A stretch of DNA of 32,460 nt from Gemmatimonadota bacterium (GTDB taxonomy: Bacteria; Gemmatimonadota; Gemmatimonadetes; Gemmatimonadales; GWC2-71-9): NCBI GenBank assembly GCA_016794825.1, contig JAEUJH010000695.1:1-32460 (forward strand), written 5' to 3'. Of the stretch, positions 10,299 through 28,909 are shown one piece after another. Each line of letters begins with the position of its first letter. The stretch's first letter is position 1. The position numbers were made by a program, and so were the translations under genes. The notes beneath the pieces were generated by a model. The model was given only the letters and a program-made list of their open reading frames with translations. It was not told the origin of the DNA and made no database searches.

Positions 10299-11291
10299 CT
10301 ATCGTCCGATCGGGACTCGAAGCGAGTGGAGCGCCCGTCGGGTCTCCACCGCCGTCACCTCCTTGCGCCAGTCGGATGAGCCATGGATCGACTCCTGCGG
10401 ATGCGCCTGTTCGGCCGCCACCGCCGCGACCCGGTCGATCACCGTGTCATCCAGCCCGCGACCGAGCGCGAAATCGAGTTGCTTGACCAGCCGCGGCTCC
10501 GGCATCAGGGCACCCAGCACCACGACGAGGCTGGCCGTGCGGCCGACCTCGTCCTGCTCCAGCGCGACGGCCACGCCCAGCTGGGGAAAGTCGATGGCGG
10601 CGCGGCGGCGGACCTTGCGGTAGGTCGCCCGTCGGAGGCCACGCGGCGCGGGAACCCGGATCCCGGTCAGCAGCGCGGACGGCGGCGTGTGGCAATGGCC
10701 CGGGAAGCGCCCGTCGATCGCGTAGAGCCGGCGGATGGGAACGACCAGGGGTCCCGCGGCCGTCAGGAAGTCGAGTTGGGCGTCGAGCGCCATCAACAGC
10801 GGGGCCGAGTCGTTGGCGCGCGCCGCGACGCACCGCTTGCCGGATCCGATCACGTGGCAGAAGTCGCCATCCTTCTTCAGGCAATGGCCCAACGCCGCTC
10901 GCCACGCCGGCGTCTGATTGTAGTAGAGACAGCGGGTGTCGAGCATGACGTTCCCGCCCAGGGTGGCCCGATTGCGGTGCAACGGGCCCGCCACCAGGGC
11001 CAGGGCCTCGGCCAGGGCCGGCAGGTGAGTCCGGAGCGCGGGATCCTCGATCAGATCGACGAGCAGCGATCCCGCCCCCAGCGACACCTCGCCGTCGGCC
11101 ACCGCCACGCCGACGGGCAGGATCCGCGACAGGCTGATCAGGTCGCTCGTGTCGTAGAGGCGGTGCTTCAGGTTCGGGATCAAATCGGTGCCGCCCGCCA
11201 GGTAGAGGGCCCCGGGATGACGGGAGTGCAACGCCACCGCCTCGGCCAGACTGGCCGGGACATGGACCCTCACCTCGGGCAGTCGCATCAT
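10299..11291 (-). CDS. hcrB: 4-hydroxybenzoyl-CoA reductase, FAD/4Fe-4S (beta) subunit
   Basis: This is the flavin subunit of the molybdenum enzyme that removes the para-hydroxyl group of 4-hydroxybenzoyl-CoA to give benzoyl-CoA. The FAD-binding motif AGGTDLIPNLK is at about 32-42 and the second at LGGNVMLDTR (111-120). What separates it from ordinary xanthine-oxidase FAD subunits is an inserted loop with four cysteines at 121, 137, 145 and 154 (spacing 16-8-9). This is the arrangement recalled for the extra [4Fe-4S] cluster of Thauera HcrB. At 330 aa the length fits. The ATG at 11291 overlaps the preceding stop by 4 nt. It is the last gene of the operon and ends 6 bp from the convergent NorB-like gene, with no clear terminator between. 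Confidence 0.9.
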   Translation of the reverse strand: MMRLPEVRVHVPASLAEAVALHSRHPGALYLAGGTDLIPNLKHRLYDTSDLISLSRILPVGVAVADGEVSLGAGSLLVDLIEDPALRTHLPALAEALALVAGPLHRNRATLGGNVMLDTRCLYYNQTPAWRAALGHCLKKDGDFCHVIGSGKRCVAARANDSAPLLMALDAQLDFLTAAGPLVVPIRRLYAIDGRFPGHCHTPPSALLTGIRVPAPRGLRRATYRKVRRRAAIDFPQLGVAVALEQDEVGRTASLVVVLGALMPEPRLVKQLDFALGRGLDDTVIDRVAAVAAEQAHPQESIHGSSDWRKEVTAVETRRALHSLRVPIGR

Positions 11292-14110: not shown

Positions 14111-14671
14111 TCAGCCGAGCGCGGCGGCCTCTCGAGCAAGATCATCGGCGAGCACCGCGAAGCGATCGCGGAGTTCCGCCACCGCCTCGTCCGCCTGCGC
14201 CCGGGAGAAGTCGGCCGCGAGCGTCGTGGCGGCGGCGCCCGTGACCATCCGGGCGGCCATCGGAAAGAGGACGTGATCTTCCTTCATGATGTGGTCGCGG
14301 AGCAGCTCGACGTAGGCCTGGCTGGCCTCGGACAGCGCCCGGGCCGCGCCGGCGTCGCCGTCGGCCAGCCGGCGGGCGCCATCGGCCATGGCGGCGATCA
14401 AGGCTCGACCGTGGACGTGTTCGTCGAGCATCACGGCCACCGGCCCGGCCTCGCGCGGAAGGCCGGCCTCCACCAGGGCGGGAAACAGTAGTTCCTCCTC
14501 CTTGTGGTGATGGCGCCCGTCCGCGAAGCCCTTCAGGAAGGTGATCGCCTCGGTAAAGAACGCCGGCCGAACCGACCCGCCGCGCACGAGGTAAGCGGCG
14601 GCCCGCTCGACCGCGTCCAACACGCGTTCGATGGTTCGGTGTTCGTTCATCAGGACGGCAACCGGCTCCAT
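14111..14671 (-). CDS. Hemerythrin-like (HHE) di-iron protein
   Basis: This 186-residue four-helix protein has ligand-type residues at H11 (NEHRTIE), H54-H56 with E58-E60 (HHHKEEELLFP), H85 (DEHVHGR), H127 and E131 (DHIMKEDHVLFP). That pattern is typical of HHE/hemerythrin domains that bind a non-heme di-iron site. Known family roles include O2 or NO binding, iron storage and repair of Fe-S clusters. A ribosome-binding site (GAGAGG) precedes the ATG at 14671. It lies inside the benzoyl-CoA operon between had and hcrCA. An O2-scavenging or Fe-S-protective job for the oxygen-sensitive reductases is plausible but is inference from position only. Confidence 0.85.
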   Translation of the reverse strand: MEPVAVLMNEHRTIERVLDAVERAAAYLVRGGSVRPAFFTEAITFLKGFADGRHHHKEEELLFPALVEAGLPREAGPVAVMLDEHVHGRALIAAMADGARRLADGDAGAARALSEASQAYVELLRDHIMKEDHVLFPMAARMVTGAAATTLAADFSRAQADEAVAELRDRFAVLADDLAREAAALG

Positions 14672-14681
14672 GGTCTACCTC

Positions 14682-15746
14682 TCAAGGGACGAGAACGGCC
14701 CGCCGGGCCAGCCCGCCGTGGTGGGCCCGATCGAAGACCTCGTTGATCTGTTCCAGCGGAAAGCGTTCGACGAAGGGCTTGACCCTGACCCGCCCGGCGC
14801 CGATCCAATCGAGCAACTCGGGATAGACCAACGGATCGGCCCCCCAGTTGCCCCGCGCGACGGCGTCGAACGCCATCAGATTGGAGAGGCAGATCTCCAC
14901 CTTGTCCATGGTGAAGCCCACCACCGCCAGCGACGCGCCGTACCCCAGGAGGGCGTAGGCCGTCTCCTGACCAGGCTTGGTCCCGGACGTCTCGAAGATC
15001 TTCCAGCGGTGGGGCGGGGCACCCAGGGCTTCCGCCGCGGCCCGAACCCTCTGCCGGAGTTCCTTGATCGGAACCCCGCCGACGGCAATCGTCGCCAGCG
15101 CGCCGGCCGTCGCCGCCTGAGCCAGCTTGTCGGGATCGACGTCGAGCGCGATGACCCGGGCGCCGGCCGCCGCCGCGATCTGCACCGCGTGCAGCCCGAT
15201 CCCGCCGGTACCCACCACCACCGCCAGGTCGCCGGGCCGGACGCCGGCGCGGGCCACCGCCTGAAATGGAGTGGCGACCGCGTCGGAGACCACGGCAAGC
15301 TCCCACAGCGCGTGGTCGTCGAGAACCTTGGCGGGCACCGGACAGAGGTAGCGCGCCGGCACGGTCAGGTGCGACGCGAAGCCGCCGTCGCGATCGTTGC
15401 CCGGCATGATCTGCTTCCGGCAAATCGAGCGGAGGTCGGCCCGGCACAGATCGCACTCGCCGCAGGGCAACACGGCCGGGACGATGACCGGCCGGCCAAC
15501 CAACCCGCCGTCGACCCCGGTCCCGACCGCCCGGACCGTGCCGCTCACCTCGTGTCCCAGGACCAGGGGCAACGCCTTGCGGGTCCGCACGCCCTGATGG
15601 AGAAAGGACAGGTCGGTGTGGCAGACCCCGCAGCCGGACACCTCGACCAGGGCCTCGCCCGGCCCGGGTGGCACCAGCTCGCGGACGATGCGTTCCAACG
15701 GACGGCCGGGCGCGGTCATCGCCCAGGCGGTGTAGCGATCGGTCAT
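14682..15746 (-). CDS. had: 6-hydroxycyclohex-1-ene-1-carbonyl-CoA dehydrogenase
   Basis: This is a medium-chain zinc dehydrogenase of 354 aa. Catalytic zinc ligands are seen in CGVCHTD (C42) and GHE (64-66). Structural zinc cysteines are C95, C98, C101 and C109. The nucleotide-binding GTGGIG is at 179-184. Length and sequence style (start with TAWAMTAPGRPLERI, later HRWKIFETSGTKPGQETAY and GADPLVYPELLDW) match Had/BzdX, which oxidises 6-hydroxycyclohex-1-ene-1-carbonyl-CoA to the 6-oxo compound with NAD+. It sits with dch and a ring hydrolase in the same operon, which supports the assignment over a generic alcohol dehydrogenase. The start ATG overlaps the ligase stop (ATGA). Confidence 0.87.
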   Translation of the reverse strand: MTDRYTAWAMTAPGRPLERIVRELVPPGPGEALVEVSGCGVCHTDLSFLHQGVRTRKALPLVLGHEVSGTVRAVGTGVDGGLVGRPVIVPAVLPCGECDLCRADLRSICRKQIMPGNDRDGGFASHLTVPARYLCPVPAKVLDDHALWELAVVSDAVATPFQAVARAGVRPGDLAVVVGTGGIGLHAVQIAAAAGARVIALDVDPDKLAQAATAGALATIAVGGVPIKELRQRVRAAAEALGAPPHRWKIFETSGTKPGQETAYALLGYGASLAVVGFTMDKVEICLSNLMAFDAVARGNWGADPLVYPELLDWIGAGRVRVKPFVERFPLEQINEVFDRAHHGGLARRAVLVP

Positions 15747-17626
15747 CGAAGGTCTCCCGCCGGCGCGGTGTCGGCGTCGTCGAACACGAATCCCGCACAG
15801 TCGTGGCACCGATCGAGGGTCCGATCGAGCCCCATGAAGCAGCGCCGATCGTCGGGCGCGAGCCGCATCACCTTCCGGAGGAAGCGGCAGTCGCAGTCGA
15901 CCGTCGGCTGATAGATGGCCTCGAGGTAGTCGCGCGACGACTCCAGCACGTTGCGGAACCGGAGCTTGAGGCTCGGGGTGAGTTCCTGATTCTCCACCGA
16001 TAACTCCCGGCTCACCACGGCAAAGGCCTGGATCCGTTCGTACTTGATCGGATGCTCCCGATTGAATTCAAGCAGCGTTTCCCGCAGGGAGGCCTTGACG
16101 GTCCGCTCCGCGTGCTCGCGGTCGGCCCCGAATTCCTGCTCGATCCGGAAGAAGTCCGGAAAGATCAGGGCGCTCAGCGTGTCCCGTCCCTCGCCCGCCA
16201 CGATGATGTGGCGGATGTAGGGGTTCCGGCCGGCGAGTTGCTGCTCGAGCGTCGTGGGCACGACCTTCTCCGCGTTGAGCAGCTTGAACACCCGATCCTT
16301 CCGGGTCACCAGCTTCAGGGCCGAGCCGACGAACTCGCCCAGATCCCCCGTGTGGAACCATCCGTCGCCGGGGAGCGCCCTGGCCGTCGCCTCGGGATTC
16401 CGGAAATACCCCGGCATGACGTTGGGCCCTCGCACCAGGATCTCGCCATCGGGCGCCAGCCGGATCGTGACGCCGGGGATCGGATAGCCGACGACCCCGG
16501 CCTGGTCGCGTTCCTCGGTGGGGTCGGTGACGGTGCAGCACGGCGAGGTTTCCGTCAGCCCCCACCCCTCCTGCACCGGGATCCGCCGAGCCGCGAAGAA
16601 CGCCGACAGGTGACCCGGAAGGGGCGCGGCCGCCGTGAAGACGAACCGCAGGCCGCTGCGGAAGATCGGGACCTCGTCGTCCGGGTGGGTCTCCACGTGG
16701 CTGACCAGCTGCTGGAACAGCTTCGGCACGCTGAAGTAGACCGTGGGTCGGACCGCCAGCCAGTTGGCGAGCAGCCGGGGAAAGTCGCGACCGTGGCTGT
16801 CGTCGATCGCCAGCAGCGCGCCGTTGGCCAGGGCCGCGAACTTCTCGAAGTTCCCGCCGAAGCTGTGGTGCCACGGGAGGTACGAGAGGAACCGATCCTC
16901 GGGGGTCACCCGCCAGACGCCCGCCGACAGCGCGCGCTGCTGCGACAACAGGTTGTCGTGGGTGAGCAGGACGCCCTTGTTGAGCCCGGTGGTGCCCGAG
17001 GTGTAGAGCATCAGAGACGGCGTGAACGGATCGACCCCAGCGGCCCGATCCAGCCAGACCGCGGTGGTGCCGCGGGGCGCCGCCACCGCCACCTCCGCGA
17101 ACGCCGACACCGGGACTCCGTCCGCCCTCCCACTCCGCGGCGGATCGAAACTGGCCACCGCGCGGACCGACCCCGGAACCCCGGTCCGCGCGAGCTGACC
17201 CGGCTCGGCCACCAGCAGAACGGTCGGCGCGGCCTGCTCGACCAGCGCACGGGTCTGGTCCGCCGAGTATCCCGCGAAGATCGGAACATGGATCGCGCCC
17301 AACGCCGCGGCCGCGAACTCGGCCACCAACATCTCGCCCCGGTTGCCGGACACCGCCACCACCCGGTCTCCCACCTCGACGCCGACATCCTCCAACCAAC
17401 CGGCGGTGCCCGCCACCCGGGCGGCGAACTCCGACCACGAGGTCCCGCGCCATCCGGACGATCCCATCTCCTGAAACATCGGGCGGCCGCCCAGACGGGC
17501 GACCTGTCGCCGCAGCAACCCTCCCAGGGACTCCGGCGCGCCCGGGCACGCCGTGCCGCAACGAAGGATCCGATCCTCCCGAATCACCGCCGCCGCGTGG
17601 GCGGCCCGCTCAGAGGGCGGCGTCAT
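15743..17626 (-). CDS. AMP-forming acyl/aryl-CoA ligase with Cys-rich C-terminal tail (627 aa)
   Basis: It activates a carboxylic acid to its CoA thioester through an acyl-adenylate. ANL-superfamily motifs are all present: phosphate loop YTSGTTGLNKG (208-218), GWGLTE (354-359), HTGD (425-428), the KDR hinge (443-445) and a C-terminal lysine region (K554). The length is closer to long-chain acyl-CoA synthetases than to the roughly 520-aa benzoate-CoA ligases. The last 50 residues carry C578, C580, C596, C607 and C610, an unusual tail that could bind a metal. The substrate is not readable: benzoate, 4-hydroxybenzoate or a 2-hydroxy acid for the adjacent dehydratase-like module are options. The start is set at 17626 because GGGAG lies 8 nt upstream; ATG 17632 is the alternative. 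It overlaps the BadF-like gene by 17 nt. Confidence 0.85.
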   Translation of the reverse strand: MTPPSERAAHAAAVIREDRILRCGTACPGAPESLGGLLRRQVARLGGRPMFQEMGSSGWRGTSWSEFAARVAGTAGWLEDVGVEVGDRVVAVSGNRGEMLVAEFAAAALGAIHVPIFAGYSADQTRALVEQAAPTVLLVAEPGQLARTGVPGSVRAVASFDPPRSGRADGVPVSAFAEVAVAAPRGTTAVWLDRAAGVDPFTPSLMLYTSGTTGLNKGVLLTHDNLLSQQRALSAGVWRVTPEDRFLSYLPWHHSFGGNFEKFAALANGALLAIDDSHGRDFPRLLANWLAVRPTVYFSVPKLFQQLVSHVETHPDDEVPIFRSGLRFVFTAAAPLPGHLSAFFAARRIPVQEGWGLTETSPCCTVTDPTEERDQAGVVGYPIPGVTIRLAPDGEILVRGPNVMPGYFRNPEATARALPGDGWFHTGDLGEFVGSALKLVTRKDRVFKLLNAEKVVPTTLEQQLAGRNPYIRHIIVAGEGRDTLSALIFPDFFRIEQEFGADREHAERTVKASLRETLLEFNREHPIKYERIQAFAVVSRELSVENQELTPSLKLRFRNVLESSRDYLEAIYQPTVDCDCRFLRKVMRLAPDDRRCFMGLDRTLDRCHDCAGFVFDDADTAPAGDLR

Positions 17627-18434
17627 CGCCATCGCTCCCGGGTCCGGCCACCACCTCGACCGACGCGGCCCCGTCGCGCGCCGCCAGGGCCGCGCCGAAC
17701 GCGCCCATCTCCTGCGGATGCGGCGGCACCACCACGGCCCGGCCCAGCTGCTGCTCGAGCAGCCGAACCATGGTGGGATGGTGGCCAAAGACCCCACCGG
17801 TCGCCACCACGGTGCCCTGAAGCACGTCCATTTCGATGACGCGCTTGATCAGCGAGCGATAGGCCGCCTGGGCCAGGTCGCCGGGTCGCTTGCCCGCTCG
17901 GATCAGACTCAGCATCTCGGTGCCGGCGAAGACCGTGCAGAAACTCCCCAATTCGAGCGCCTCGGTGGCCGTCTGCGCCAACTCGTCGAGCTGCCCGATC
18001 GGGGTATCGAGGCGAAGCGCGATCTCCTCCAGGAAACTCCCGGTGCCCGCGGCGCATTTGCGGTTCATCCGGTGCGCCAGGCGCCGACCGTCGGGACCGA
18101 TCCGAATGACCTTGGCATCCTGGCCACCGAGATCGACCACGGTACTCGGACCCGGCACGTAATGCGCGACGCCCCGGGCATGGCAGTCGAGTTCGGTGCG
18201 GGATCCGCCGGCGAACGGAACCGATCCGCGCCCGAACCCGGTCGACCAGGTGGCCGCGATCCGACTCGAACTCAGGTCAGCGGCCCCCACCGCGAGATCG
18301 AGCGCCGATCGGGCGGCCGCGGCGAGATCGGCGCCGCTTCGGACCACGGCGGTCCCGAGGACCCGGGCCTGCTCGTCGATGACCGCGGCCTTGGTGTTCC
18401 AGGACCCGACGTCCACGCCGGCGAAGTAGCTCAT
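17610..18434 (-). CDS. BadF/BcrA/HgdC-type ATPase, canonical member of the second module
   Basis: This is an ASKHA-fold ATPase that drives low-potential electrons into a 2-hydroxyacyl-CoA dehydratase or aryl-CoA reductase. Motifs are the phosphate-1 loop GVDVGSWNTK (6-15), DLGGQD (101-106), KCAAGTG (126-132) with C127, and C166 in FCTVFAGTE. C127 and C166 are the positions recalled for the subunit-bridging [4Fe-4S] of HgdC. The ATP-binding GG motif near 213 is followed by an ATGGVFGHHP loop. It belongs to a module of two ATPases and two HgdB/BcrB-like subunits that is distinct from the bzdNOPQ set of the same operon. It overlaps its upstream neighbour by ATGA. Confidence 0.85.
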   Translation of the reverse strand: MSYFAGVDVGSWNTKAAVIDEQARVLGTAVVRSGADLAAAARSALDLAVGAADLSSSRIAATWSTGFGRGSVPFAGGSRTELDCHARGVAHYVPGPSTVVDLGGQDAKVIRIGPDGRRLAHRMNRKCAAGTGSFLEEIALRLDTPIGQLDELAQTATEALELGSFCTVFAGTEMLSLIRAGKRPGDLAQAAYRSLIKRVIEMDVLQGTVVATGGVFGHHPTMVRLLEQQLGRAVVVPPHPQEMGAFGAALAARDGAASVEVVAGPGSDGDDAAL

Positions 18435-19669
18435 CGTGACCCTCGCGCGGTCGCTCCCCGGTCGGCCAGCAGTTCCACGAAACCCTCGACATTGGTGCGG
18501 GCCTGCTCGTCCGAAAAACAGCGCAGGTCGTTGACGTCCCCGTCCAGCACCAGGGTCGGCAGGCCCAACCGATCGCCCAGCCGCTGGGGCATCCCGTACC
18601 GCGTGTTGGAGTTGTTGGGGCAGGTTCGGCAGTCGTGGAAGATCAGCCCATCGACCTGATAGAAACGGGCCATCCGTTCGAGATAGCGCTCCTTGGGCTC
18701 CTCGGACCGGACGATGAACAGCTCCAGCGACGCCCGGGCCATCGACCGGAACGGCTCCGCCGGGTCGAGGGCGGCAAAGACCCAGCTGTTGCAGTACGTG
18801 GAGGCCACCACCGCCGTGTGGAACTCCTCGAACAGGCTCCCCAGCGCCCGGAGCCGGCCCCAGATGGGCATCCCGTCCCAGAAGACCCGGAAGGCTTCAC
18901 CGGGAATGGCCGCGTGCCGAGCCCCGGCCCGCGACTCGAGTTCCTCGAGCAGGACCTCGTAATAGTCGCAGGCCTCGGGCGCACCCCGCAGCACCACCGC
19001 TGGCCCCATGTGGACCGTGCCGTCGAAGAAGGTCAGGGGCGCGGGCCGGTGCGTGGCCGTGTCGAGGCAGGCACCCCAGAGGTCGGAGAGCCGGCGGGAC
19101 AACCGCACCGCCTCGGACAGCGCGGTTGGGTCGAGGCGCCGGCCGGCCACCTGCTCGAGCGGCGCCACCAACGCCTCCAGCTGAACCGTCACTCCGTCGA
19201 CGTCGGCCTCGCGGACCTCGTCGACATAACGGGGCGAGCGGACGCCGACCACCGGGACTCCCCACCGCCGGCCGTACCACTCGAACCAGTCGCGCACGTC
19301 GCGACACTGATTGGTGTTGAAGACCAGCACATCGGCCTTCGGCACCTCGGTCAGCCCATAGGTGGCCAGCGGCGTCTCCCCAGCCCGAAAGGCCCCGATG
19401 TCGCTGGTCAGATAGGAACAGATGTCCTGACTGTACCCCAGGGCGTGCGCCCGCGGCATGACGTGGTTGGCCCGGCGGGAGGCACCGAGCATGGCGGCAT
19501 GGTTCTCCGGGAAAAACACCTGAAAGCCCAGGGCGCGGAGCAACTCGGCGGGACCCACGCTGGTGCACCAGGCCACCGGGGCCGACCGGTCCCGGGCGGC
19601 CTGGCCCAGCGCGGAAAAGTAGTTCGCCATCACGGACTTGAGGGCGGCGGCGCTGGCCAATTGGGTCAT
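18431..19669 (-). CDS. 2-hydroxyacyl-CoA dehydratase / aryl-CoA reductase subunit of the second module (412 aa)
   Basis: It belongs to the HgdB/FldB/BcrB family. All three family cysteines that hold a [4Fe-4S] cluster are present: C35 (VAWCTSVGPAELLRALG), C84 (YSQDICSYL) and C347 (HDCRTCP, with an extra C350). The PENHAAM segment (54-60) and TYCNSW (291-296) are also family-like. The length agrees with dehydratase D-component subunits and with BcrB/BzdO. Its partner is the PanE-fused homologue at 20438-22741, which lacks one of the three cysteines. The start is ATG at 19669, overlapping the preceding stop (ATGA). Whether the substrate is aromatic or a 2-hydroxyacyl-CoA cannot be decided from sequence alone. 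Confidence 0.83.
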   Translation of the reverse strand: MTQLASAAALKSVMANYFSALGQAARDRSAPVAWCTSVGPAELLRALGFQVFFPENHAAMLGASRRANHVMPRAHALGYSQDICSYLTSDIGAFRAGETPLATYGLTEVPKADVLVFNTNQCRDVRDWFEWYGRRWGVPVVGVRSPRYVDEVREADVDGVTVQLEALVAPLEQVAGRRLDPTALSEAVRLSRRLSDLWGACLDTATHRPAPLTFFDGTVHMGPAVVLRGAPEACDYYEVLLEELESRAGARHAAIPGEAFRVFWDGMPIWGRLRALGSLFEEFHTAVVASTYCNSWVFAALDPAEPFRSMARASLELFIVRSEEPKERYLERMARFYQVDGLIFHDCRTCPNNSNTRYGMPQRLGDRLGLPTLVLDGDVNDLRCFSDEQARTNVEGFVELLADRGATARGSR

Positions 19670-20451
19670 GAGGGCCTCACCAGGAGCGCCGCGCCATGGG
19701 CGGCGGTGTAGATCGGATCGGGGGCCGCCACCACGGACACCCCGGCCAGGGATTCGATGGCGCGGAGCACGCCCGGGAAATACTCGGCCACGCCGCCGGC
19801 GGCGACGACCGGGGGATCCAGGTCGCCAATTTCGACCACCCGCTCGGCGATCGACCGCATCGACCCCAGCGCCACGTCCTCGAGGCTGGCCCCGTCCCGG
19901 AGCCGCTCGAGGATCCCGGTTCCGGAGAACACCGAGCAGTAGCTGCTGACCGACGCCGCCGCCGTGGCCGCCGAGGCCAGGTCCTGCAATCGGGTCGGAT
20001 GAACGTCGAGGTGCCGGGCGGCGAACATCAGGAAACTGCCGACCCCGACCGCGCACCGCCGAACCCGCTGGATGTTCCGTGGGGTTCCATCCGATCCGAC
20101 CGCGATGACCTGCGGTTCGTGACCCCCGAGGACCACCAGCGTCATGCGCCCGCGGACGTGGTGCCAGGCTCCCGCCGCGTGACAGACCGACTCGGCCAAC
20201 CGCGTCGCGGCGTGAGGTACCCGGTCCGGGGCGAACCCGGTGGCGCCGATCACGGCCAGATCCGCCTCGCCCGCGCGCGCGTCCTCGAGGGCCGCCCTCA
20301 GCGCCTCGTAGGCGCGGTCCTGGAAGTATCCCCGCGTCGGCACCGACGCCCGGCCCAGGATCCGTCGATCCTCCGCGACGACCACCGCCTTCACGTACTC
20401 GGTGCCGACGTCCACCCCGGCCGTGACCAGGCCCAGCTCAGTGGTCGCCAT
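19666..20451 (-). CDS. Divergent BadF/BcrD-type ATPase-like subunit of the second module
   Basis: This 261-residue ASKHA-fold homologue keeps the first phosphate loop (GVDVGTEYVK, 12-21) and the two cluster cysteines (C133 and C172, the same 39-residue spacing as its paralogues). However, the usual GGQD reads GGHEP (109-113) and the usual CAAGTG reads CAVGVG (133-138). ATP hydrolysis may thus be weak or lost. It probably pairs with the canonical ATPase at 17610-18434 as a heterodimer, like BcrA-BcrD, rather than the HgdC homodimer. It overlaps the fusion gene by 14 nt and the following subunit gene by 4 nt. Confidence 0.8.
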   Translation of the reverse strand: MATTELGLVTAGVDVGTEYVKAVVVAEDRRILGRASVPTRGYFQDRAYEALRAALEDARAGEADLAVIGATGFAPDRVPHAATRLAESVCHAAGAWHHVRGRMTLVVLGGHEPQVIAVGSDGTPRNIQRVRRCAVGVGSFLMFAARHLDVHPTRLQDLASAATAAASVSSYCSVFSGTGILERLRDGASLEDVALGSMRSIAERVVEIGDLDPPVVAAGGVAEYFPGVLRAIESLAGVSVVAAPDPIYTAAHGAALLVRPS

Positions 20452-22741
20452 CGGATCCCTCCTGCTGCCCGGCCCCGACGAGGACGTTGGCGGGCGTCGT
20501 GTCCTCCACCATCGCGCGGAATCGATCGAGGGAGAAGAGTCGCTCGTCGTGCGAATCGGCCTCGACCACCGCGGCCGGCACGCCGGTTCGCCGTTGCAGC
20601 CGGCGGGCCAGACCGTACCGGACGTGGCTGGTCTGGGGCGCGGTGCGGCAATCATGGAGAACGGCCAGATCGATCCCGTGCTCATCCAGTTGCGCCGCCA
20701 GGAAGCCAAGCTGGAACTCGTCGGACCGATTGGCGAACACCTCCGCGTACGTCCTGGCGAGGCTGGCGACCGGATCGTCCGCGTCGAGGCCCCGGAGCAC
20801 GAACGACTCGCAGAACGTCGAGGCCACCACCGCGACGCCCCGCTCCTCCAAGTACTTCGAGAGCGGGCGGAGCGCGCACCAGAGCGGCGGCCCGTCCCAG
20901 TACCAACGGCGCCTTTCCGGCGTCACCGCGCCCACCCCCCGGGCCAACCGATCGTCCACCTCGTCCCGCAGCATCCGATAGTAGGCCACCGCCTCCGGCG
21001 TCCCCCGGAGCAGCACCATCGGCGCGACGTGCACCAGCGTGTCGAAGAAGGTCAGCGGAGCCGGCGCCGCCCGAGCCCGGTCGAGCACCTCGTTCCAGAG
21101 GCTGGCGGCTTCGCCGGTGAGGCTCACGATCTCGCTCAGCCGATCGAGGTCGAGCGTCCGACCCGCGATCCGCTCGAGGCGCTCGACCAACCGGAGTACC
21201 TGGTGCACGGCCGCCTGCTCATCGATCCGTTCGAGCAGATCGAGTTCCGCCGGCGGATTGAGGCCGACGACCGGGACCTCGAAATGCCGGCCGTAGAAGC
21301 GGAACCAGTCGATCAGGGCCCGTCCCGTGTTGGTGCTGTAGACGACCACGTCCGGTCGCGGCGGCGCCACGCCGTGCGCCCGTTGCAGCGGGCTGTCTCC
21401 GCTAACCAGGGCCCCGAGGTCGAGGCGCATCGCCGAATTGGAGAGCTGGGAAAACCCGAGCGCGGCCGCCTTGCTGAGGTAGGGACCGCCCTGCCGGCTG
21501 GCCGCGATCAACGCGGCATGGTTCTCCGGCAGATAGGGCACCAGGTCGAGGCCCCGCAGGATCTCGACCGGGCCGAGGCTGGTGCAGCACGCCACCTTGC
21601 GGGCCGGATCGGCCCCCGCGGCGGCCAGATCGCGGTAGTAGTCGCCGACCAGTTCCTTGAGCTTGCGAGTGCTCTCGAGCGGGGGGCCACTCGGGCGCAT
21701 CCCGCCGCCGGACCCGCGGGCAAAGGCCGGCACCCGCGTCCCGCCGGATGCGGGGCTCGGTCGCTCCGCGGGAACGGTCCGTGCCGCCGCCTCCCGCGCG
21801 ATCCGCTGGCTCCGCAGGAACGTGTGCCGCTCCCGGGAGTGGATGAACCGGACCAGCGCCGCGTTATGCGGAGCGCCGAGACCGAGGCGCGCGGCCTCCC
21901 CGACGACCGCGCCGTTGATCGCGTCGACCTCGGTCCGCCGGCCGCGCGCCAGATCCTGCCACATCGACGGCCGGTTGTTGCCGAGCGCGGTGAGCGAGCC
22001 CATCAAGGGTCGAAACGGGTCGGCCTCGTCGACGATCGGGACGCCGCGGGCCCGCATCACCGCCAGAATCTCGTCCGCCAGGTCCCGCATGAACGCCAGC
22101 AGATCCTCGTCGCCGAGGATCTCGCGACACGACAGCCCGGTCAGGGCGGACACCGGGTTGATGACCGCGTTATGGAGCAGCTTCTGCCACACCACATGGT
22201 CGATCCGGGTCACGATGTCGGTTTCCAGGCCGCTCGCGGCGAAGAGCCGGCCAATGGCCTCGATGTCCGCGGTCACGGCGCCGGCGAGCGGCGCGATCTG
22301 GATCGGCTTGACGCCCTTGCGGTACCGCAACCGCCCGGGCCCGGCGTGCTGAACGCTGTGATAGGTGATCCCGCAGAGGACCCGCTCGGGTCCGACCAGC
22401 TCGGCGATTCGCTCGGCGTTCCCGATCCCGTTCTGCATCGAGAGGAAGCGGGTTCCGGGATGGGTCGCCGGCAGCCCCTCCCGCACCGCGGGCTCCGTCT
22501 GGTAGGTCTTGACCGCGATGAACACCAGGTCGAACGGCGCCTCGCCGGCGACGCTCGTGACCACCCGGACCGGCACCCGAACCTCCGGTTCGCCCGCCTG
22601 GGATATCAACAACCCCTGGTCCGTGAGCAATCGGGCCCGGGCCACGTTGGGATCGAGCAGCGCCACGTCCACGCCGGCCCGCGACAGGCAGGCGCCCACG
22701 TAGCCGCCCAGCGCACCCGCACCCAGGATCAGGACTCTCAT
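20438..22741 (-). CDS. Fusion of a ketopantoate-reductase-type domain with a 2-hydroxyacyl-CoA dehydratase / aryl-CoA reductase subunit (767 aa)
   Basis: Residues 1-305 form a complete PanE/ApbA-type NAD(P)-dependent 2-oxoacid reductase: GAGALGG (7-13) nucleotide loop, N104 in SMQNGIGN, K187 and N191/N195 in WQKLLHNAVINPVSAL, E271 in RRTEVDAINGAVV. Residues 306-355 are a Gly/Pro/Ala-rich linker. Residues 356-767 form an HgdB/BcrB-family subunit with C386 (or C385) and C698 (HDCRTAP), but the middle family cysteine is missing (SQLSNSAMR at 431-439 where the sister protein has SQDICSYLT). There is no stop or frame break between the parts. An internal ATG (M348, 21700) has no good ribosome-binding site. 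The fusion suggests coupled chemistry, perhaps 2-oxoacid to 2-hydroxyacid to enoyl-CoA, but this is inference. Confidence 0.85.
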   Translation of the reverse strand: MRVLILGAGALGGYVGACLSRAGVDVALLDPNVARARLLTDQGLLISQAGEPEVRVPVRVVTSVAGEAPFDLVFIAVKTYQTEPAVREGLPATHPGTRFLSMQNGIGNAERIAELVGPERVLCGITYHSVQHAGPGRLRYRKGVKPIQIAPLAGAVTADIEAIGRLFAASGLETDIVTRIDHVVWQKLLHNAVINPVSALTGLSCREILGDEDLLAFMRDLADEILAVMRARGVPIVDEADPFRPLMGSLTALGNNRPSMWQDLARGRRTEVDAINGAVVGEAARLGLGAPHNAALVRFIHSRERHTFLRSQRIAREAAARTVPAERPSPASGGTRVPAFARGSGGGMRPSGPPLESTRKLKELVGDYYRDLAAAGADPARKVACCTSLGPVEILRGLDLVPYLPENHAALIAASRQGGPYLSKAAALGFSQLSNSAMRLDLGALVSGDSPLQRAHGVAPPRPDVVVYSTNTGRALIDWFRFYGRHFEVPVVGLNPPAELDLLERIDEQAAVHQVLRLVERLERIAGRTLDLDRLSEIVSLTGEAASLWNEVLDRARAAPAPLTFFDTLVHVAPMVLLRGTPEAVAYYRMLRDEVDDRLARGVGAVTPERRRWYWDGPPLWCALRPLSKYLEERGVAVVASTFCESFVLRGLDADDPVASLARTYAEVFANRSDEFQLGFLAAQLDEHGIDLAVLHDCRTAPQTSHVRYGLARRLQRRTGVPAAVVEADSHDERLFSLDRFRAMVEDTTPANVLVGAGQQEGSDGDH

Positions 22742-22763: not shown

Positions 22764-23531
22764 CTAGCGATTGCCCCAGGCCGGCCGTCGTTTGTCGTAG
22801 AACGACGCGATCCCTTCCCTGACATCATCGAGCCGCATCAGCTCGTCCAGAAAGACCCGCTCCGCCTCGCGGTGCGCCTCGGCGAACGGTCGCCCCTGGA
22901 GCCGCCGAAGGCATCCGACGTTGAGCCGCATCACCGCCGGACTGGCCCGCCGGCAATCGTCCAGCACCGCTTCGACCCGGGCCGCCAGCCCGTCGGGCTC
23001 GACGATCGCCGACACCAGACCCATCGCCTCCATCTCGGCCGCCGAACAGGTTCGTCCCGTGCTGGTCAACTCGACCGCGCGCCCCAACCCGACGCGCTGC
23101 GCCAGCCAGGCCACTCCCACGGGCGCGAAGAACCCGAGCCGAATCTCCGGTTGGCCAAACCGGGCCCGCGGCGTGGCGATCAGCACATCGGCCATCAGGG
23201 CCAGCTCGAACCCGGCGCCCAAGGCCGCCCCGTCCACCGCCATGACGATCGGCAGGTCCAGCGATCCCAGCCGGTCGAACAGGGCGCTGAACGCCGCGAT
23301 CATCGCTGGCGCGTTCTCGGGTCGGTGTTCACCGACATCCGCGCCGGCGGAGAACGCGGTCCCGTTCGCGCCGACGGCCACCGCGACCAGGGTGCGGTCG
23401 GCGGCGGCCCGATCCAGGGCCTCGGCGCATTGGGTCATCAGCGCACCGGTCAGGATGTTGTGCGGCGGGGCGTCGAGGGTGAGGTACCCGACCGCGCCCT
23501 GGACCCGATAGTCGACTCGTCCGCCGCTCAT
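22764..23531 (-). CDS. dch: Cyclohexa-1,5-diene-1-carbonyl-CoA hydratase
   Basis: This crotonase-family protein of 255 aa has oxyanion-hole segments FSAGADVGEH (60-69) and DGAALGAGFEL (100-110). The SAGADVGEHRPE stretch and the length fit Dch/BzdW, which adds water to the dienoyl-CoA made by benzoyl-CoA reductase to give 6-hydroxycyclohex-1-ene-1-carbonyl-CoA, the substrate of Had. The ATG at 23531 follows GATGAGGG, 4 nt after the stop of the hydrolase gene. An upstream in-frame ATG at 23603 would overlap the hydrolase gene deeply and is not favoured. A generic enoyl-CoA hydratase is the fallback, but the operon context supports Dch. Confidence 0.83.
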   Translation of the reverse strand: MSGGRVDYRVQGAVGYLTLDAPPHNILTGALMTQCAEALDRAAADRTLVAVAVGANGTAFSAGADVGEHRPENAPAMIAAFSALFDRLGSLDLPIVMAVDGAALGAGFELALMADVLIATPRARFGQPEIRLGFFAPVGVAWLAQRVGLGRAVELTSTGRTCSAAEMEAMGLVSAIVEPDGLAARVEAVLDDCRRASPAVMRLNVGCLRRLQGRPFAEAHREAERVFLDELMRLDDVREGIASFYDKRRPAWGNR

Positions 23532-23535
23532 GCCC

Positions 23536-24507
23536 TCATCCCGCCAGCGGCGCGCCGCACTTGCCGCAGTAGGTGAACTCGGCCGGAATCCCGCTTGCTC
23601 CACACCGCCCGCAAGTGTGCCGATAGGGACCCCAGAGGAACTCGCTGCTGCCGCCCGCCGCGGCCTTCTGGCGAAGCCCCCGATAGTCCGGCTTCCGCTT
23701 CTCGACGAAGGCGCGCATCCCCTCGTACGGCTCCAGGGTCGTGAAATGGGTCGACAGCCAATCGCGGGCGTGACCCACGGTGGCGTACCACGAGGTTTCC
23801 TTCCAGTAGTTGACCTGGGCCTTGGTGTACCGGGTGCACTCGGAAAACTTGTCGAGCAGCTGCTCGACCAGCGAGTCGACTTCCGCGTCGAGCCGCTCCC
23901 GGGGCACCACCCGGTTGACCAGGCCCCACTCCAGGGCCTTGGCCGCAGGAATCCGCGGGTTCAGGAACAGCATCTCGCGAGCCCGCCGGTCGCCGACGTG
24001 GACCGAGAGCCACTGGGTCGCGCCGCCGGCGGCCACGCTCCCCACCCCGGTGCCGACCTGGCCCAGGTAGGTATCGTCGGCCATCACCGCCAGGTCGCAG
24101 GCCAACTGCGACTCGTTGCCACCACCGACCGCCGCCCCGTTGATCCGGGCGATGACCACCTTCCCGGTCCGGAGGATGCTCTCGAGATACTTGCTGAACA
24201 GCCCCATGTACTTGAAGTAGTCGCGCGGCCGCTGGGTGTAGAGCGCCGCGTATTCCTTGACGTCGCCCCCGGTGCAGAATGCCTTGTCGCCCGCGCCGGT
24301 GTACACGATGACCGCCACCTGATCGTCGGCCGAGGCATCGTCGAACGCGGTGATCAGTTCCTCGAGAGTGGCCGTGCGGTAGCAGTTGTAGGCTTCGGGT
24401 CGGTTGATGGTGATCCGCGCGACGGAACCCTCTTTCCGGTAGAGGATGTCCTTGAAATCGAAGCTCGCGGCGGGCTTGGGGGCGAAATGACGATCCATGG
24501 CGATCAC
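23536..24507 (-). CDS. oah: 6-oxocyclohex-1-ene-1-carbonyl-CoA hydrolase-like crotonase with C-terminal zinc ribbon (323 aa)
   Basis: This is the likely ring-opening enzyme of the pathway (Oah/BamA/BzdY). Crotonase motifs are AFCTGGDVKEY (76-86) and INGAAVGGGNESQLACD (122-138), followed by GQVGTGVGS. The later ECT-x4 and W-x3-HARDWLSTHF parts recall BamA. It lacks the roughly 50-residue insertion usual in BamA and in places resembles BadI, the cyclohexane ketoacyl-CoA hydrolase, so the assignment is not absolute. After a normal crotonase end it adds a zinc-ribbon-like tail with C299, C302, C314 and C317, which the known enzymes lack as far as is recalled. GTG at 24507 is chosen because it forms a GTGA overlap with the preceding stop, the style of this operon; ATG 24498 is the alternative. 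Confidence 0.75.
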   Translation of the reverse strand: MIAMDRHFAPKPAASFDFKDILYRKEGSVARITINRPEAYNCYRTATLEELITAFDDASADDQVAVIVYTGAGDKAFCTGGDVKEYAALYTQRPRDYFKYMGLFSKYLESILRTGKVVIARINGAAVGGGNESQLACDLAVMADDTYLGQVGTGVGSVAAGGATQWLSVHVGDRRAREMLFLNPRIPAAKALEWGLVNRVVPRERLDAEVDSLVEQLLDKFSECTRYTKAQVNYWKETSWYATVGHARDWLSTHFTTLEPYEGMRAFVEKRKPDYRGLRQKAAAGGSSEFLWGPYRHTCGRCGASGIPAEFTYCGKCGAPLAG

Positions 24508-24788
24508 GTGGCTCCGGCTGCTGGTGGAGGGCCGGCCGGCCGGATATCCAGCGCCAGGCAGGCCGTGTTGAGGAAACAGTCGCGGCAGTGGTCGGCGACT
24601 CGATCGGCGCTCACGGCGACGATCCGGGTCTCGAATCCGAGTCCCCGATACGCCTCGGCGAGTTCCTGGAGGCGGTAGCGGTCGGCCACGGTACGGCGGA
24701 CCCAGCCCGCCGGGTCGGGCCCGCCGCCCTCGGCGGCGCCGTCGCACGACCCGCTGGCCCGGGGCGAGATCGGGACCGGATCGGTCAC
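24504..24788 (-). CDS. Small Cys-motif protein, function unknown (94 aa)
   Basis: GTG at 24788 overlaps the stop of the bzdQ-like gene (GTGA), and the stop overlaps the next start in the same way, so it is translated as part of the chain. The first 28 residues are Gly/Pro-rich. The rest looks like a compact alpha/beta unit (RYRLQELAEAYRGLGFETR then a strand) ending in CRDCFLNTAC (C68, C71, C77), which could bind a metal or an Fe-S cluster. No known family is recognised. Position right after the ATPase subunit and before the hydrolase suggests a helper of the reductase, for example an assembly or electron-transfer role, but nothing proves this. The coding frame, not its shadows, keeps the typical GC-rich third positions. 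Confidence 0.65.
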   Translation of the reverse strand: MTDPVPISPRASGSCDGAAEGGGPDPAGWVRRTVADRYRLQELAEAYRGLGFETRIVAVSADRVADHCRDCFLNTACLALDIRPAGPPPAAGAT

Positions 24789-25603
24789 GCCAGCACGGCT
24801 CCGGCGGCGGCCGCCGTCTTGGCCAGGCGGCGGTGACCCAGGATCCCGCACCCCAGGGCGGCCACGAACTGGACCACGTCGGGCGGCGGCACGTTGACGT
24901 CCGCCTTGAGGGACCGGGCGATCGAGCGGGCCATCGTCTCGAACCGCATGATCCCGCCGATCAGGGTGTACTCCGGCTCCGGGCCGGCCCGCTTGATCAG
25001 CTGGATCGAGCGGCTGGTGAGCGACTCGACCGCGCCCTGCATGATGTCGGCCGGCGGGGTCCCCAGGGACAAGTGATTGATGACCTCGGACTCGGCAAAG
25101 ACCGCGCAGACGCCCGAGATCGGCACCGGCTCCTTGGACGTGGCCATCAGCGGGCCGATCTCGGCGACGGCGTACCCCATGTACCGGGCCGTCTTCTCGA
25201 GGAAGGCGCCGGTGCCGGCGGCACACTTGTCGTTGAGGCGGAACGACACGACCTGTCCTAGCTCGTTGATCCGGGTGGCCTTCATCGTCTGCCCCCCGAT
25301 GTCGAGGATGGTCCGGGTCCGCGGGAACAGGTGGAGCGCGCCCCGGCTCGACGCCGTCAGATCCGTCACCTGGGTGTCCTTGAAGTCCACCTGATGGCGA
25401 CCGATCCCGGTGGCGATGACGTACCGGATATCCGACCGGGTCAGGCCGGCCTCGGCCAAGGCGCGATCGTAGGTGTCGGACGCGACCTCGCGGAGCCGGA
25501 ACCCGGTCGGTGCCGCGGCCCGCGCCAGGGTGGTGCCGTCGCTCGCCTGAATGACGACCTTGGTGTACGTCGACCCGACGTCGATCCCCGCCGTGACCGT
25601 CAT
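24785..25603 (-). CDS. bzdQ: Benzoyl-CoA reductase ATPase subunit (BzdQ/BcrD/BadG-like)
   Basis: This is an ASKHA-fold ATPase subunit of 272 aa. It has the phosphate loop [10 protein letters not shown] (6-15), DIGGQTMK (101-108, Thr in place of the Asp seen in its partner), KCAAGTG (126-132) with C127, and C166 in [10 protein letters not shown]127 and C166 should ligate the [4Fe-4S] shared with the other ATPase subunit. The short length (no 150-residue extension as in Thauera BcrA) fits the Azoarcus-type BzdP/BzdQ pair. It is coupled to the bzdP-like gene by ATGA and to the small Cys-motif gene by GTGA. The P/Q assignment follows gene order and could be swapped. Confidence 0.83.
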
Positions 25604-26418
25604 CCCGCCACCTCCGGCTCCCGGACCGGGGCGCGCCCGGCCCGCACGTGGTCCATGGCGAACAGCGCCGCGCCGAGCGCGCCCATGAAGTGGCTGTCCT
25701 CGCTGTAGTTGAGCGTCTTGCCAAGCCGCTCCTCGATGGCCCGGACCATCCCGAGGTTCCGCGACACGCCGCCGGTGAAGGTGACCTCGTCCTCGATCCC
25801 GACCCGCCGGAGCAACGCCACCGAGCGGGAGGCGATCGAGACGTGCACCCCCCGGAGGATGTCGTCGATCTTCTTGCCCTTCCCGATCCAGGCGAGCACC
25901 TCGGACTCGGCGAACACCGTGCAGGTCGTGGAGATCTTGACCGGCTTGTCCGACCGAAGCGACATCGGCCCCAGATCGGCCAGCGGGAGTCCCAACGCGG
26001 CCGCCGCGGCGCCCAGGAACCGACCGGTGCCGGCGGCGCATTTGTCGTTCATGCAGAAGTCGAGGATCTGCCCGTCCGCGGCGACCCGGATGGCCTTGGT
26101 GTCCTGCCCGCCCATGTCGACCACGGTGCGGGTGTTCGGGAACATGTGCACCGCGCCCCGACCGTGGCAGCTGATTTCGGTCACCTGGGTGTTGCCGAAG
26201 GTCACTCGGTAGCGGCCGTACCCGGTGCCGACCACGAACTCCACCTCGCGCTCCTCGATCCCGTGCTCCCGGAGCGCGGTCAGGTAGGCGTCCTCGGCGG
26301 CCTTGACGACGTTGGCGCCGGTGTCGAGCAGCGCCCGCCCCACGATCCGGAGATCCTCGTCGATGATGACGGCCTTGGTCTGGGTCGAACCGACGTCCAC
26401 CCCCGCCGCGTATGCCAT
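25600..26418 (-). CDS. bzdP: Benzoyl-CoA reductase ATPase subunit (BzdP/BcrA/BadF-like)
   Basis: This canonical ATPase subunit of 272 aa couples ATP hydrolysis to transfer of low-potential electrons from reduced ferredoxin to the ring-reducing subunits. Motifs are [10 protein letters not shown] (6-15), DMGGQDTK (101-108), [11 protein letters not shown] (124-134) with C127, and [11 protein letters not shown] with C166. The GGV loop for nucleotide binding is near 215. The gene lies 9 nt after the bzdO-like gene and overlaps the bzdQ-like gene by 4 nt. The HgdC-like activator of a dehydratase is the fallback assignment, but the paired ATPase and the bzdN/O partners point to benzoyl-CoA reductase. 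Confidence 0.85.
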
Positions 26419-26427
26419 ATGGCCACC

Positions 26428-27729
26428 TCAGTTGGTGACGCCGGCACCGCCGTGCCGGCGCCGAGACCCGAGCCCCTCGAAGAACGCGTCGATCCGATTC
26501 TTCATCTGGGCTTCCGAGACGACCCGACGGTCCATCATGTCGGATTCGATGAACAAGCTGGGGATCCCGTGCCGCTCCGTGAGATGCCGTCGTCCGTCGG
26601 CCAGACCGGTCGAGACCGTGCGGCAGCTCTTGATCGGATGGTAGATGACGCCGTCGGCCTGGCAGTCGCGGTACATCTCCGCCACCACCAGATCCTGGTG
26701 GAACATGGAGTCCATCGCGTCCCGCACGCTCACCAACAGACCCTCGGCCAGGCTCGCGATCGGGTTGGCCAGGTCGTACTGGAAGCCACGGTTGGCGCCC
26801 CCGGACGCGAACCACAGGTAGGTCGAATTGACGAAGACCCCGCCCCAGTCCGTGAACAGCTCGTTGAACCGGCGGAAGATCGGATAACACGGCACCCCGA
26901 CGAAGATCAGCCGGTACCGCTCCTCGGTGCTGGTCCCGATACCCTGCGCCACCTTGTACTCCATCTCCTCCACCAGGTCCTCGAAGTACCGGGCGCCCTC
27001 GGCCGAGCCGCGGAATCCGTTGGCGACGCCGAGATAGATCGTGCCGTCGGTCAGCGCGTTCATCACGGCGGGCCGGGCCCGGTTGAGTTCCAGCAGCCGG
27101 GCCCAGCACCGGCTCATGGTGTTGGCGTGCGTCAGCACCTCCCGGAACCGATCGATGTCGAACCGCTTCCCGGTCAGCTTTTCGCACAGCGCGATCAGTT
27201 CCAGCACCTGGGTCTCGACGTAGCGCCGGTCCGCCTCGAAGTCGCCGTCGCCCCGGGCGGTCCGATCGCCGCCTTGCCGGGTCCCGGGCACGTCGATGGT
27301 GACCATCGGCGTGTGGTGCATCCGCTCCCAGATCTCCGCCCACTTCACGTAGGTGTTGCAGGCGTTGGTGAGCACCGAGAGCGCCGGCTTCGGAATCCGC
27401 CCCATCGGGTGTTGCCCACCCCGCAGCTGGGTCGCGACGTCGGCCTTGACGTAGCCACAGATGTCGGGTGAGTAGCCATGGTCCTCGGCCACCGCCAGGT
27501 ACTCGTGCGCCACCCGACGGACCGCGGTTTGCAGCGAGTTGATCTCGGGAAAGACCACCGGCAGGTCGAACGTCTTCAACACTTCGTTGAGGCTACCCAT
27601 CACGAACACGTACGCGGCCGGGCCGCCGCGGGCGGCGACCTCGTCGAGTTCGGCGAACCAGCGCCGGAACAGCTCGGCGCCGTCCCGGTTGCCGCGGCCC
27701 GGCAGGCTCGAGGGAACAGTGGCCGTCAT
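26428..27729 (-). CDS. bzdO: Benzoyl-CoA reductase subunit (BzdO/BcrB/BadE-like)
   Basis: This is one of the two subunits that bind benzoyl-CoA and the active-site [4Fe-4S] cluster for ring reduction. At 433 aa (about 49 kDa) it has the size of BzdO. Family landmarks are FPEINSLQTAVRR (60-72), GYSPDICGYVKAD (85-97, C91), NACNTY (122-127, C124) and IKSCRTVSTGL near the C-terminus. As in BcrB-type subunits, the position of the first HgdB cysteine is not Cys here (VMGSLNEVL). The gene lies 10 nt after the bzdN-like gene. Substrates other than benzoyl-CoA, such as ring-substituted analogues, cannot be excluded. Confidence 0.85.
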   Translation of the reverse strand: MTATVPSSLPGRGNRDGAELFRRWFAELDEVAARGGPAAYVFVMGSLNEVLKTFDLPVVFPEINSLQTAVRRVAHEYLAVAEDHGYSPDICGYVKADVATQLRGGQHPMGRIPKPALSVLTNACNTYVKWAEIWERMHHTPMVTIDVPGTRQGGDRTARGDGDFEADRRYVETQVLELIALCEKLTGKRFDIDRFREVLTHANTMSRCWARLLELNRARPAVMNALTDGTIYLGVANGFRGSAEGARYFEDLVEEMEYKVAQGIGTSTEERYRLIFVGVPCYPIFRRFNELFTDWGGVFVNSTYLWFASGGANRGFQYDLANPIASLAEGLLVSVRDAMDSMFHQDLVVAEMYRDCQADGVIYHPIKSCRTVSTGLADGRRHLTERHGIPSLFIESDMMDRRVVSEAQMKNRIDAFFEGLGSRRRHGGAGVTN

Positions 27730-27739
27730 GGTCGTCGCC

Positions 27740-28909
27740 TCAGGTGAAGAGAAGATTCTCGGTGAAAGTCTCGAGCTGGAGCGTCAACTGCTCGAACGAC
27801 GTCATGTTCTCCTCGAACTCGGTCACGAAGTGGGCCACCCCGGCTTCCTCGAGCGCGCGGACGTAGGTCACCTGTTCCTCGAGCCCGGGTTCACACATCT
27901 TGGCCGCGGCCAGGATGACCGCGTCGGCCCGGGCGGCCCGGACCCGGTCGAGGATCATCGCCTCCTTCGGCTTCCGGAGATCGTGCTGGACCGGGCTGTA
28001 GCTCGACTGCTCGCAGTAGGCGAACGCCAGGTTGTGGAGCGGGTCGCCGTCCAGGGCCACGTCGTCGCGGATCCAGCGGAGCCCGATCAGGAGGTCGTCG
28101 TCGACGAGATACACGCTCCGGCCCAGCATCCGGATGAGATCGAAGGGGGGCTGCTCGCAGAAGCCGCCCTCGAACACGACCCGGCTGCGATCCTCCGGTC
28201 GAGTTTGGCGGGCCCGGATCCGGGGCAGCAGCGTGGCGAGCAGGTCGTTGTGCTCCTCGCGGGGCAACATGCCGGCCAGCGCGGTCAACGCGTACGCATC
28301 CTCCGCCGCCAACAGCCACGGGGTGTCGCGCTTGATCTGGTACACCTCCCGGAGGAGCCGGCGATTGGTGTTGAACACCGCCACCGACCGACGGAGATCG
28401 TCGTCGCCGACCGGCCGGCCGGCCACCGCCTCGACCGTCCGTCGGACCCGATCGTACTCGTGACGAAGCCAGGGGATGCTGCCGGAGGAGTTGGGGTTTT
28501 GCGGGAGGTAGAGGATCTGGCAGGGATAGGTGAAGTTCCGACCCCAGATGGCGGCCAGATTGCGGGCGGCGTCGCAGATCGGGTGCGACACGAACAGGTC
28601 GAGTTCGACCTTCCCGCTCAGCGCCAGTTCGAGCGAGGTCTTGAGGATCGAGCAGAGGTACGACCCGAAGTGCGACTCGGCCCGACTCGGCTCGTGCGGC
28701 GCCCCTCGCAGCTTGACCGGCAGCATCCCGGCGGCGTGGATGATTTCCTCGGGGAAGTAGACCTGGAAGTGACCGCCCACTTTGCCGCCCTGCTCGCGCC
28801 ACCGAGCCACCGGCAGATAGTCGGGCGACTCGACCAGTTCCCGGCACTCGAGGAGGGCCTCGTCGAGGCTCTTGTCACGCCATTCGGGAAAGACGGCCCG
28901 CATCGTCAT
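27740..28909 (-). CDS. bzdN: Benzoyl-CoA reductase subunit (BzdN/BcrC/BadD-like)
   Basis: This is the second ring-reducing subunit. At 389 aa (about 43 kDa) it has the size of BzdN. Landmarks are VGGHFQVYFPEEIIHAAGMLP (44-64), a Cys in GSYLCSILK (C86), HPICDAARNL (109-118, C112), GGFCEQP and AAKMCEPGLEEQ near the C-terminus. Together with the three following genes it gives the order N-O-P-Q known from the Azoarcus bzd cluster. Its ATG at 28909 overlaps the stop of the TetR gene (ATGA); ATG 28903 is a close alternative. No ferredoxin gene (bzdM) accompanies the set in this window. Confidence 0.85.
   Translation of the reverse strand: MTMRAVFPEWRDKSLDEALLECRELVESPDYLPVARWREQGGKVGGHFQVYFPEEIIHAAGMLPVKLRGAPHEPSRAESHFGSYLCSILKTSLELALSGKVELDLFVSHPICDAARNLAAIWGRNFTYPCQILYLPQNPNSSGSIPWLRHEYDRVRRTVEAVAGRPVGDDDLRRSVAVFNTNRRLLREVYQIKRDTPWLLAAEDAYALTALAGMLPREEHNDLLATLLPRIRARQTRPEDRSRVVFEGGFCEQPPFDLIRMLGRSVYLVDDDLLIGLRWIRDDVALDGDPLHNLAFAYCEQSSYSPVQHDLRKPKEAMILDRVRAARADAVILAAAKMCEPGLEEQVTYVRALEEAGVAHFVTEFEENMTSFEQLTLQLETFTENLLFT

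Follow-up and report, generated by a model that had tools for sequence, protein, structure and literature searches.

A ketopantoate-reductase-fold domain fused to a HadB-fold domain without iron-sulphur cluster ligands in aromatic degradation gene clusters of at least three bacterial phyla

A contig from a Gemmatimonadota metagenome-assembled genome (MAG; contig JAEUJH010000695.1 of assembly GCA_016794825.1, analysed over its 32,460 nucleotides and here called the window) encodes, on one polypeptide, a PanE-type domain of ketopantoate-reductase fold and a domain of the HGD-D family of 2-hydroxyacyl-CoA dehydratase and benzoyl-CoA reductase subunits, raising the question of whether such a protein is genuine and what a dehydrogenase might do when attached to a subunit of this kind. 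The gene (20438..22741, minus strand) is a single open reading frame of 767 codons plus stop, with its ATG at 22741 and its stop codon at 20440-20438; a sequence-only reading had reported an uninterrupted 767-codon frame here without giving a strand, and we read it as minus. Both domains and the type of complex considered below are already known, and we found no description of the domain pair. A full-text literature search, whose coverage was partial and whose silence is weak evidence, found ketopantoate reductase and benzoyl-CoA reductase connected in no paper, and two neighbouring term pairs brought up unrelated ones only.

The fusion is no artefact and has been kept stably in evolution, occurring in at least three bacterial phyla. 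When the same architecture was sought elsewhere, as the sequence-only reading had proposed, full-length copies without internal stops were found at 60-66% identity in 14 other genomes of the order (201 searched), and named records from Gemmatimonadota, Myxococcota (L058, and L059, whose record is titled Deltaproteobacteria and which the tree tool's taxonomy assigns to Myxococcota) and Candidatus Eisenbacteria (L060) also have the fusion, as does a second Eisenbacteria genome (G461). The frame runs on without stops across the junction in these independent genomes, and no split version was found among close relatives, so that the earlier concern that relatives might always keep two separate genes did not materialise. 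Both parts are under strong purifying selection, with ratios of nonsynonymous to synonymous substitution (dN/dS) between close pairs that span 0.03-0.12 in PanE and 0.03-0.21 in the fused HGD domain. A 766-amino-acid open frame on contig C140 of genome G118 was considered as a second fusion and rejected, the PanE-family gene there being separate.

Pfam matched the fusion protein with ApbA at residues 3-152 (116 bits), ApbA_C at 180-303 (112.5 bits) and HGD-D at 391-738 (144.8 bits), all well over the curated cut-offs; taken together with NCBIfam, the PanE/ApbA domain is complete and spans residues 1-305. An AlphaFold2 model built with 19 sequences (mean pLDDT 82) contained two confident domains, whose relative placement is not defined given a pTM of 0.55. 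The first, the PanE domain (residues 1-313; 21803..22741, minus), returned the ketopantoate reductases 3hwr and 5hws and D-mandelate dehydrogenase 3wfi in Foldseek, and its score of 253 bits against TIGR00745 (2-dehydropantoate 2-reductase; cut-off 141.35) places it in that subfamily, while in the NCBIfam scan of this domain no equivalog cut-off for ketopantoate reductase function was reached. As the sequence-only reading had stated, the reductase is intact: alignment located N104, K187, N191, N195, S259 and E271 at the catalytic Lys and Glu and substrate-binding Asn and Ser positions, which we take from the E. coli enzyme. All are invariant across 19 fusions except S259, replaced by Thr in L056 and in L042, a duplicate entry of L056 within this set. 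Judged by these kept residues the domain looks a competent catalyst, and an acidic residue closing its second strand (Asp30 in the window copy, Glu in most fusions) suggests a preference for NAD(H). Its fold and its Lys, Asn, Ser and Glu catalytic residues are those of ketopantoate reductase and D-mandelate dehydrogenase, from which it differs in its C-terminal HGD-D extension and its aromatic-degradation context.

A linker follows (residues 314-355; 21677..21802, minus), with pLDDT below 50 and disorder predicted over residues 314-351; a linker had been foreseen at 50 residues, and its length is nearer 40. The second domain (residues 356-750; 20492..21676, minus) has the HadB fold, with Foldseek matches to HadB structures 3o3o and 3o3m (template modelling score 0.91-0.92 by target length).

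What sets this second domain apart is the loss of its iron-sulphur cluster ligands. In HadB (3o3m) we take C84, C117 and C346 as the ligands and S37 and E55 as pocket residues, and equivalent positions were found by alignment. Cysteine occupies the three ligand positions in 1/19, 0/19 and 0/19 fused domains respectively, the window copy having N435, G473 and A701 instead. By contrast, HGDB2 (18431..19669, minus), a HadB-like alpha subunit encoded two genes downstream of the fusion as a tandem paralogue of the fused domain, has cysteine at all three positions in 14/14 sequences each (C84, C122 and C350 in the window). The stand-alone relatives of HGDB2 and the HadB-like and BcrB-like proteins also retain all three. 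Cysteines in the motifs CCTS (386) and HDCRT (698) of the fused domain were considered as ligands and ruled out by the HadB alignment. Because three cysteines bind the HadB-type alpha cluster (PMC11574389) and all three positions have changed, the fused domain would be unable to act as the catalytic dehydratase subunit itself, and any dehydration would fall to the neighbouring HGDB2.

The tree joins the fused domain and HGDB2 as sister clades (100/100), next to HadB and at a distance from the beta-type BcrC; the fused domain sits on a long stem (0.76), as expected where constraint has been lost. HGDB2 matched HadB with 166 bits and keeps the S37 and E55 equivalents; against the HadB equivalog model it scored 188.8, under the cut-off of 750. 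HGDB2 and the HadB-like proteins have the Ser37 equivalent and the BcrB-like ones another residue in its place, which favours dehydratase-like over reductase-like chemistry. HGDB2 is the probable catalytic subunit, with a predicted dehydratase-like activity.

Each of the two HGD-D proteins is encoded beside an activase gene. ATP1 (17610..18434, minus) is a canonical acyl-CoA dehydratase/reductase activase by Pfam, NCBIfam and alignment, with the DIGGQDxK motif and the two bridging cysteines intact. Its paralogue ATP2 (19666..20451, minus), assigned by the same means, overlaps the fusion gene by 14 nt and retains the bridging-cluster cysteines Cys133 and Cys172 in 19/19 sequences, with the DIGGQDxK ATPase motif degenerate in every member. 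The quartet of fusion, ATP2, HGDB2 and ATP1 is tightly packed, with overlaps of 4-14 nt. On these motifs and the cluster ligands, one arm of the putative complex looks catalytic and the other a scaffold.

We propose, with a probability of roughly one half, that the fusion product is the non-catalytic half of a lopsided, ATP-driven, 2-hydroxyacyl-CoA-dehydratase-like complex to which an NAD(P)H dehydrogenase has been attached. An alpha subunit-activase pair would have been duplicated in tandem, giving HGDB2-ATP1 on one side and the fused HGD domain-ATP2 on the other. Radical chemistry would take place at HGDB2, through its [4Fe-4S] site and HadB-type pocket residues, with ATP1 hydrolysing ATP and an electron passing via a cluster bridged by the cysteines of ATP1 and ATP2. 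No beta-type (HadC/BcrC) subunit was found in or near the quartet, and BcrC is the one beta-type HGD-D protein that the genome was seen to encode. The alpha-derived, clusterless domain is a natural candidate for the partner position that HadC or BcrC holds in known enzymes. There it could tether the PanE module by the flexible linker beside the active subunit, and PanE, as a hydride-transfer dehydrogenase, could make or consume the hydroxy compound on which HGDB2 acts; its kept residues would fit a 2-oxo or (R)-2-hydroxy acid. The fusion, its conservation, the ligand loss against HGDB2 retention, the sister clades, linkage and co-occurrence are observed by computation; formation of the complex, activity of PanE, its predicted use of NAD(H) and the direction of the reaction are what we infer.

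To our knowledge, every 2-hydroxyacyl-CoA dehydratase and class I benzoyl-CoA reductase so far described relays electrons via a pair of subunits, each with a [4Fe-4S] cluster of its own. For the dehydratases this two-cluster, two-subunit path is documented: known component D enzymes are alpha-beta heterodimers in which the activase electron enters the beta cluster and moves to the alpha cluster (PMC11574389). This weighs against our proposal, as a clusterless partner would require either a shorter electron path or an HGDB2 homodimer. Two further points count against it: in Myxococcota the fusion co-occurs with an HGDB2 of the stand-alone clade in the tree, and the pairing of the two may be looser there; and the two distinct activases resemble benzoyl-CoA reductase more nearly than dehydratase.

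The proposed complex has likenesses to both kinds of known system. As in (R)-2-hydroxyisocaproyl-CoA dehydratase (HadBC with HadI; 3o3m, 4eht), HGDB2 resembles HadB, the fused domain has the HadB fold and activases are the partners, but here the partner subunit is an alpha-derived domain without cluster ligands rather than a beta subunit, the two activases are unlike each other, one having degenerate ATPase motifs, and PanE is fused to the partner. With the class I benzoyl-CoA reductases (BcrCBAD, BzdNOPQ 8s02 and MbdONPQ 9gai) the quartet shares two HGD-D subunits, two distinct activases and the same pathway neighbourhood, whereas HGDB2 and the fused domain both group beside HadB and not with BcrB or MbdO, which places the quartet outside that class; it has no BcrC-type beta subunit, a separate Bcr is present, and the fused domain lacks cluster ligands.

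More tentatively, the quartet might specify a one-cluster archerase-type enzyme, in which a duplicated alpha subunit lost its cluster, gained an NAD(P)H dehydrogenase and replaced the beta subunit, one of the activases having become a pseudo-ATPase whose sole contribution is cysteines for the bridging cluster. Such an enzyme, if real, would join hydride transfer to ATP-driven radical chemistry, both acting on one CoA substrate during the breakdown of aromatic compounds. If one subunit of a conserved complex has exchanged its cluster for a dehydrogenase, that complex would also test the need for the second cluster, and would point to a further step of anaerobic aromatic degradation in the poorly cultured Gemmatimonadota, Myxococcota and Eisenbacteria.

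The setting of the quartet is a benzoyl-CoA (aromatic ring) degradation cluster. On the same strand, the window runs from a TetR-like regulator through a BcrC-like subunit (27740..28909, minus), a BcrB-like subunit (26428..27729, minus), two BcrA/BcrD-type ATPases of this separate benzoyl-CoA reductase (25600..26418 and 24785..25603, both minus), an Oah/BadI-like ring-opening hydrolase (23536..24498, minus; under the equivalog cut-offs) and a Dch-like cyclohexa-1,5-dienecarbonyl-CoA hydratase (22764..23531, minus; top family TIGR03189, under its cut-off) to the fusion. The two Bcr subunits were assigned by Pfam, NCBIfam and tree, and the ATPase at 25600..26418 by Pfam and NCBIfam. After the fusion come ATP2, HGDB2 and ATP1, an AMP-forming acyl-CoA ligase (15743..17626, minus) whose start overlaps ATP1, the 6-hydroxycyclohex-1-ene-1-carbonyl-CoA dehydrogenase Had (14682..15746, minus; over the cut-off of TIGR03201), a hemerythrin gene and a molybdenum hydroxylase fusion.

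Gemmatimonadota and Eisenbacteria share the order Oah-Dch-fusion-ATP2-HGDB2-ATP1-ligase-Had, with one short-chain dehydrogenase/reductase gene between Oah and Dch in the Gemmatimonadota loci inspected. Two Myxococcota genomes have Dch beside the fusion and ATP2, and carry HGDB2-ATP1 on another contig. The Bcr genes of the window (24785-28909, minus) are MbdO-like in the tree, those accompanying the fusion elsewhere are of another type, and genomes of the same family with the window's Bcr type had no fusion in the stretches examined. The quartet is accordingly best described as an add-on that travels with a particular Dch, Oah and Had set. An exchange of the Bcr module seems to have taken place in the window's lineage. 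In the Myxococcota genomes G201 and G202, which have no BcrB/C-like genes, the quartet was considered as the sole benzoyl-CoA reductase, an idea weakened by the AFOR-family genes of both, which could encode the class II reductase BamB.

This setting gives the best-surviving alternative, which we regard as possible though unlikely: that the complex acts within the ring pathway, with HGDB2, ATP1 and ATP2 using ATP to reduce or dehydrate a benzoyl-CoA derivative that is alicyclic or hydroxylated, and PanE reducing or oxidising a ring oxo group of a CoA ester instead of a 2-oxo acid. The position of the quartet among Dch, Oah, Had and a separate Bcr, its occurrence alongside two different Bcr types and its two distinct, benzoyl-CoA-reductase-like activases all fit such a role, as does an unfused PanE-family gene that accompanies HGDB2-ATP1 and Oah/MenB-like and Had-like genes in Eisenbacteria G452; the ketopantoate reductase structure 5ayv, by its title, has coenzyme A bound. 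It is opposed by the clustering of HGDB2 with HadB and not BcrB, by the kept Ser37 equivalent and by the residues associated with 2-oxo-carboxylates in PanE, and the canonical ring pathway is complete in the genome without the quartet.

That the fused PanE merely serves the cell as the ketopantoate reductase of CoA synthesis, its attachment having no pathway meaning, seems improbable. No ApbA_C protein other than the fusion was found in the window's genome, where PanB is present, and the fusion is the sole copy in 12/18 other fusion genomes; yet 6/18 have a further ApbA_C (PanE-family) gene, many genomes of the order, some of the same genus, have no match to the query at all, and the catabolic cluster is its conserved location across three phyla. 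Ketol-acid reductoisomerase (KARI) can substitute for ketopantoate reductase. In some hosts the fused domain might contribute to pantothenate synthesis as well.

Slightly poorer still are the prospects of the model offered by the sequence-only reading, in which an active 2-hydroxyacyl-CoA dehydratase subunit, beside an acyl-CoA ligase, carries a 2-oxoacid reductase on the same chain. Its outline held, in that both folds do lie on one chain, the PanE residues are kept and the ligase adjoins in the same operon, but the fused domain cannot readily be the active dehydratase given the 1/19, 0/19 and 0/19 cysteines, with all three lost in the window copy. The 2-oxoacid to enoyl-CoA route drawn from that model is possible as one of several chemistries, since the setting is benzoyl-CoA ring degradation. 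Two genes joined by an assembly error or frameshift can be set aside almost entirely: nothing was found in favour, although the MAG (5.45 Mb) does lie in 994 contigs, and the identical junction recurs under purifying selection in independent assemblies of three phyla.

HGDB2-ATP1 pairs without the fusion form a wider family in Myxococcota-class and Eisenbacteria genomes, several being followed by an NDP-forming acyl-CoA synthetase (two tested, the others from reading of open reading frames). Eisenbacteria L176 (8708-17991) and L177 have a gene row of HGDB2-ATP1, NDP-forming acyl-CoA synthetase, AOR, ferredoxin and a PanE-family gene, the last encoded separately from the alpha subunit/activase pair. 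The PanE-family gene of L176 was rejected as a fission product of the fusion described here, being 25-27% identical to the fused domain and without the two Asn residues. As it is so distantly related, PanE and HGDB2-ATP1 may have been brought together more than once, which, if true, would argue for a functional link. In L182 the row extends to Oah/MenB-like and Had-like genes, and the AOR of L176 is nearer archaeal AOR than BamB.

Other genes beside HGDB2 were also seen. Directly upstream of the HGDB2-ATP1 pair in L164 (4666-8731, minus), an indolepyruvate ferredoxin oxidoreductase alpha subunit is fused to a GltD-like NAD(P)-binding module and accompanied by the beta subunit. Upstream of the pair in L163 (11229-15156, minus) lie a glycyl-radical enzyme with an N-terminal extension of ~200 residues, under the cut-off of every named family of such enzymes, and its activase. 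A small CxxC open reading frame precedes HGDB2 in L171.

Within the window, an open reading frame of 94 amino acids containing cysteine and without a Pfam match lies between the Bcr ATPase and Oah (24497-24788, minus). The hemerythrin gene near Had (14111-14671, minus) has a conserved counterpart close to the cluster at most of the fusion loci in Gemmatimonadota. The molybdenum hydroxylase (10299-14095, minus) has its 2Fe-2S and Mo domains in one chain and a FAD subunit besides, which contains an extra Cys-rich loop; by this loop the enzyme would resemble 4-hydroxybenzoyl-CoA reductase.

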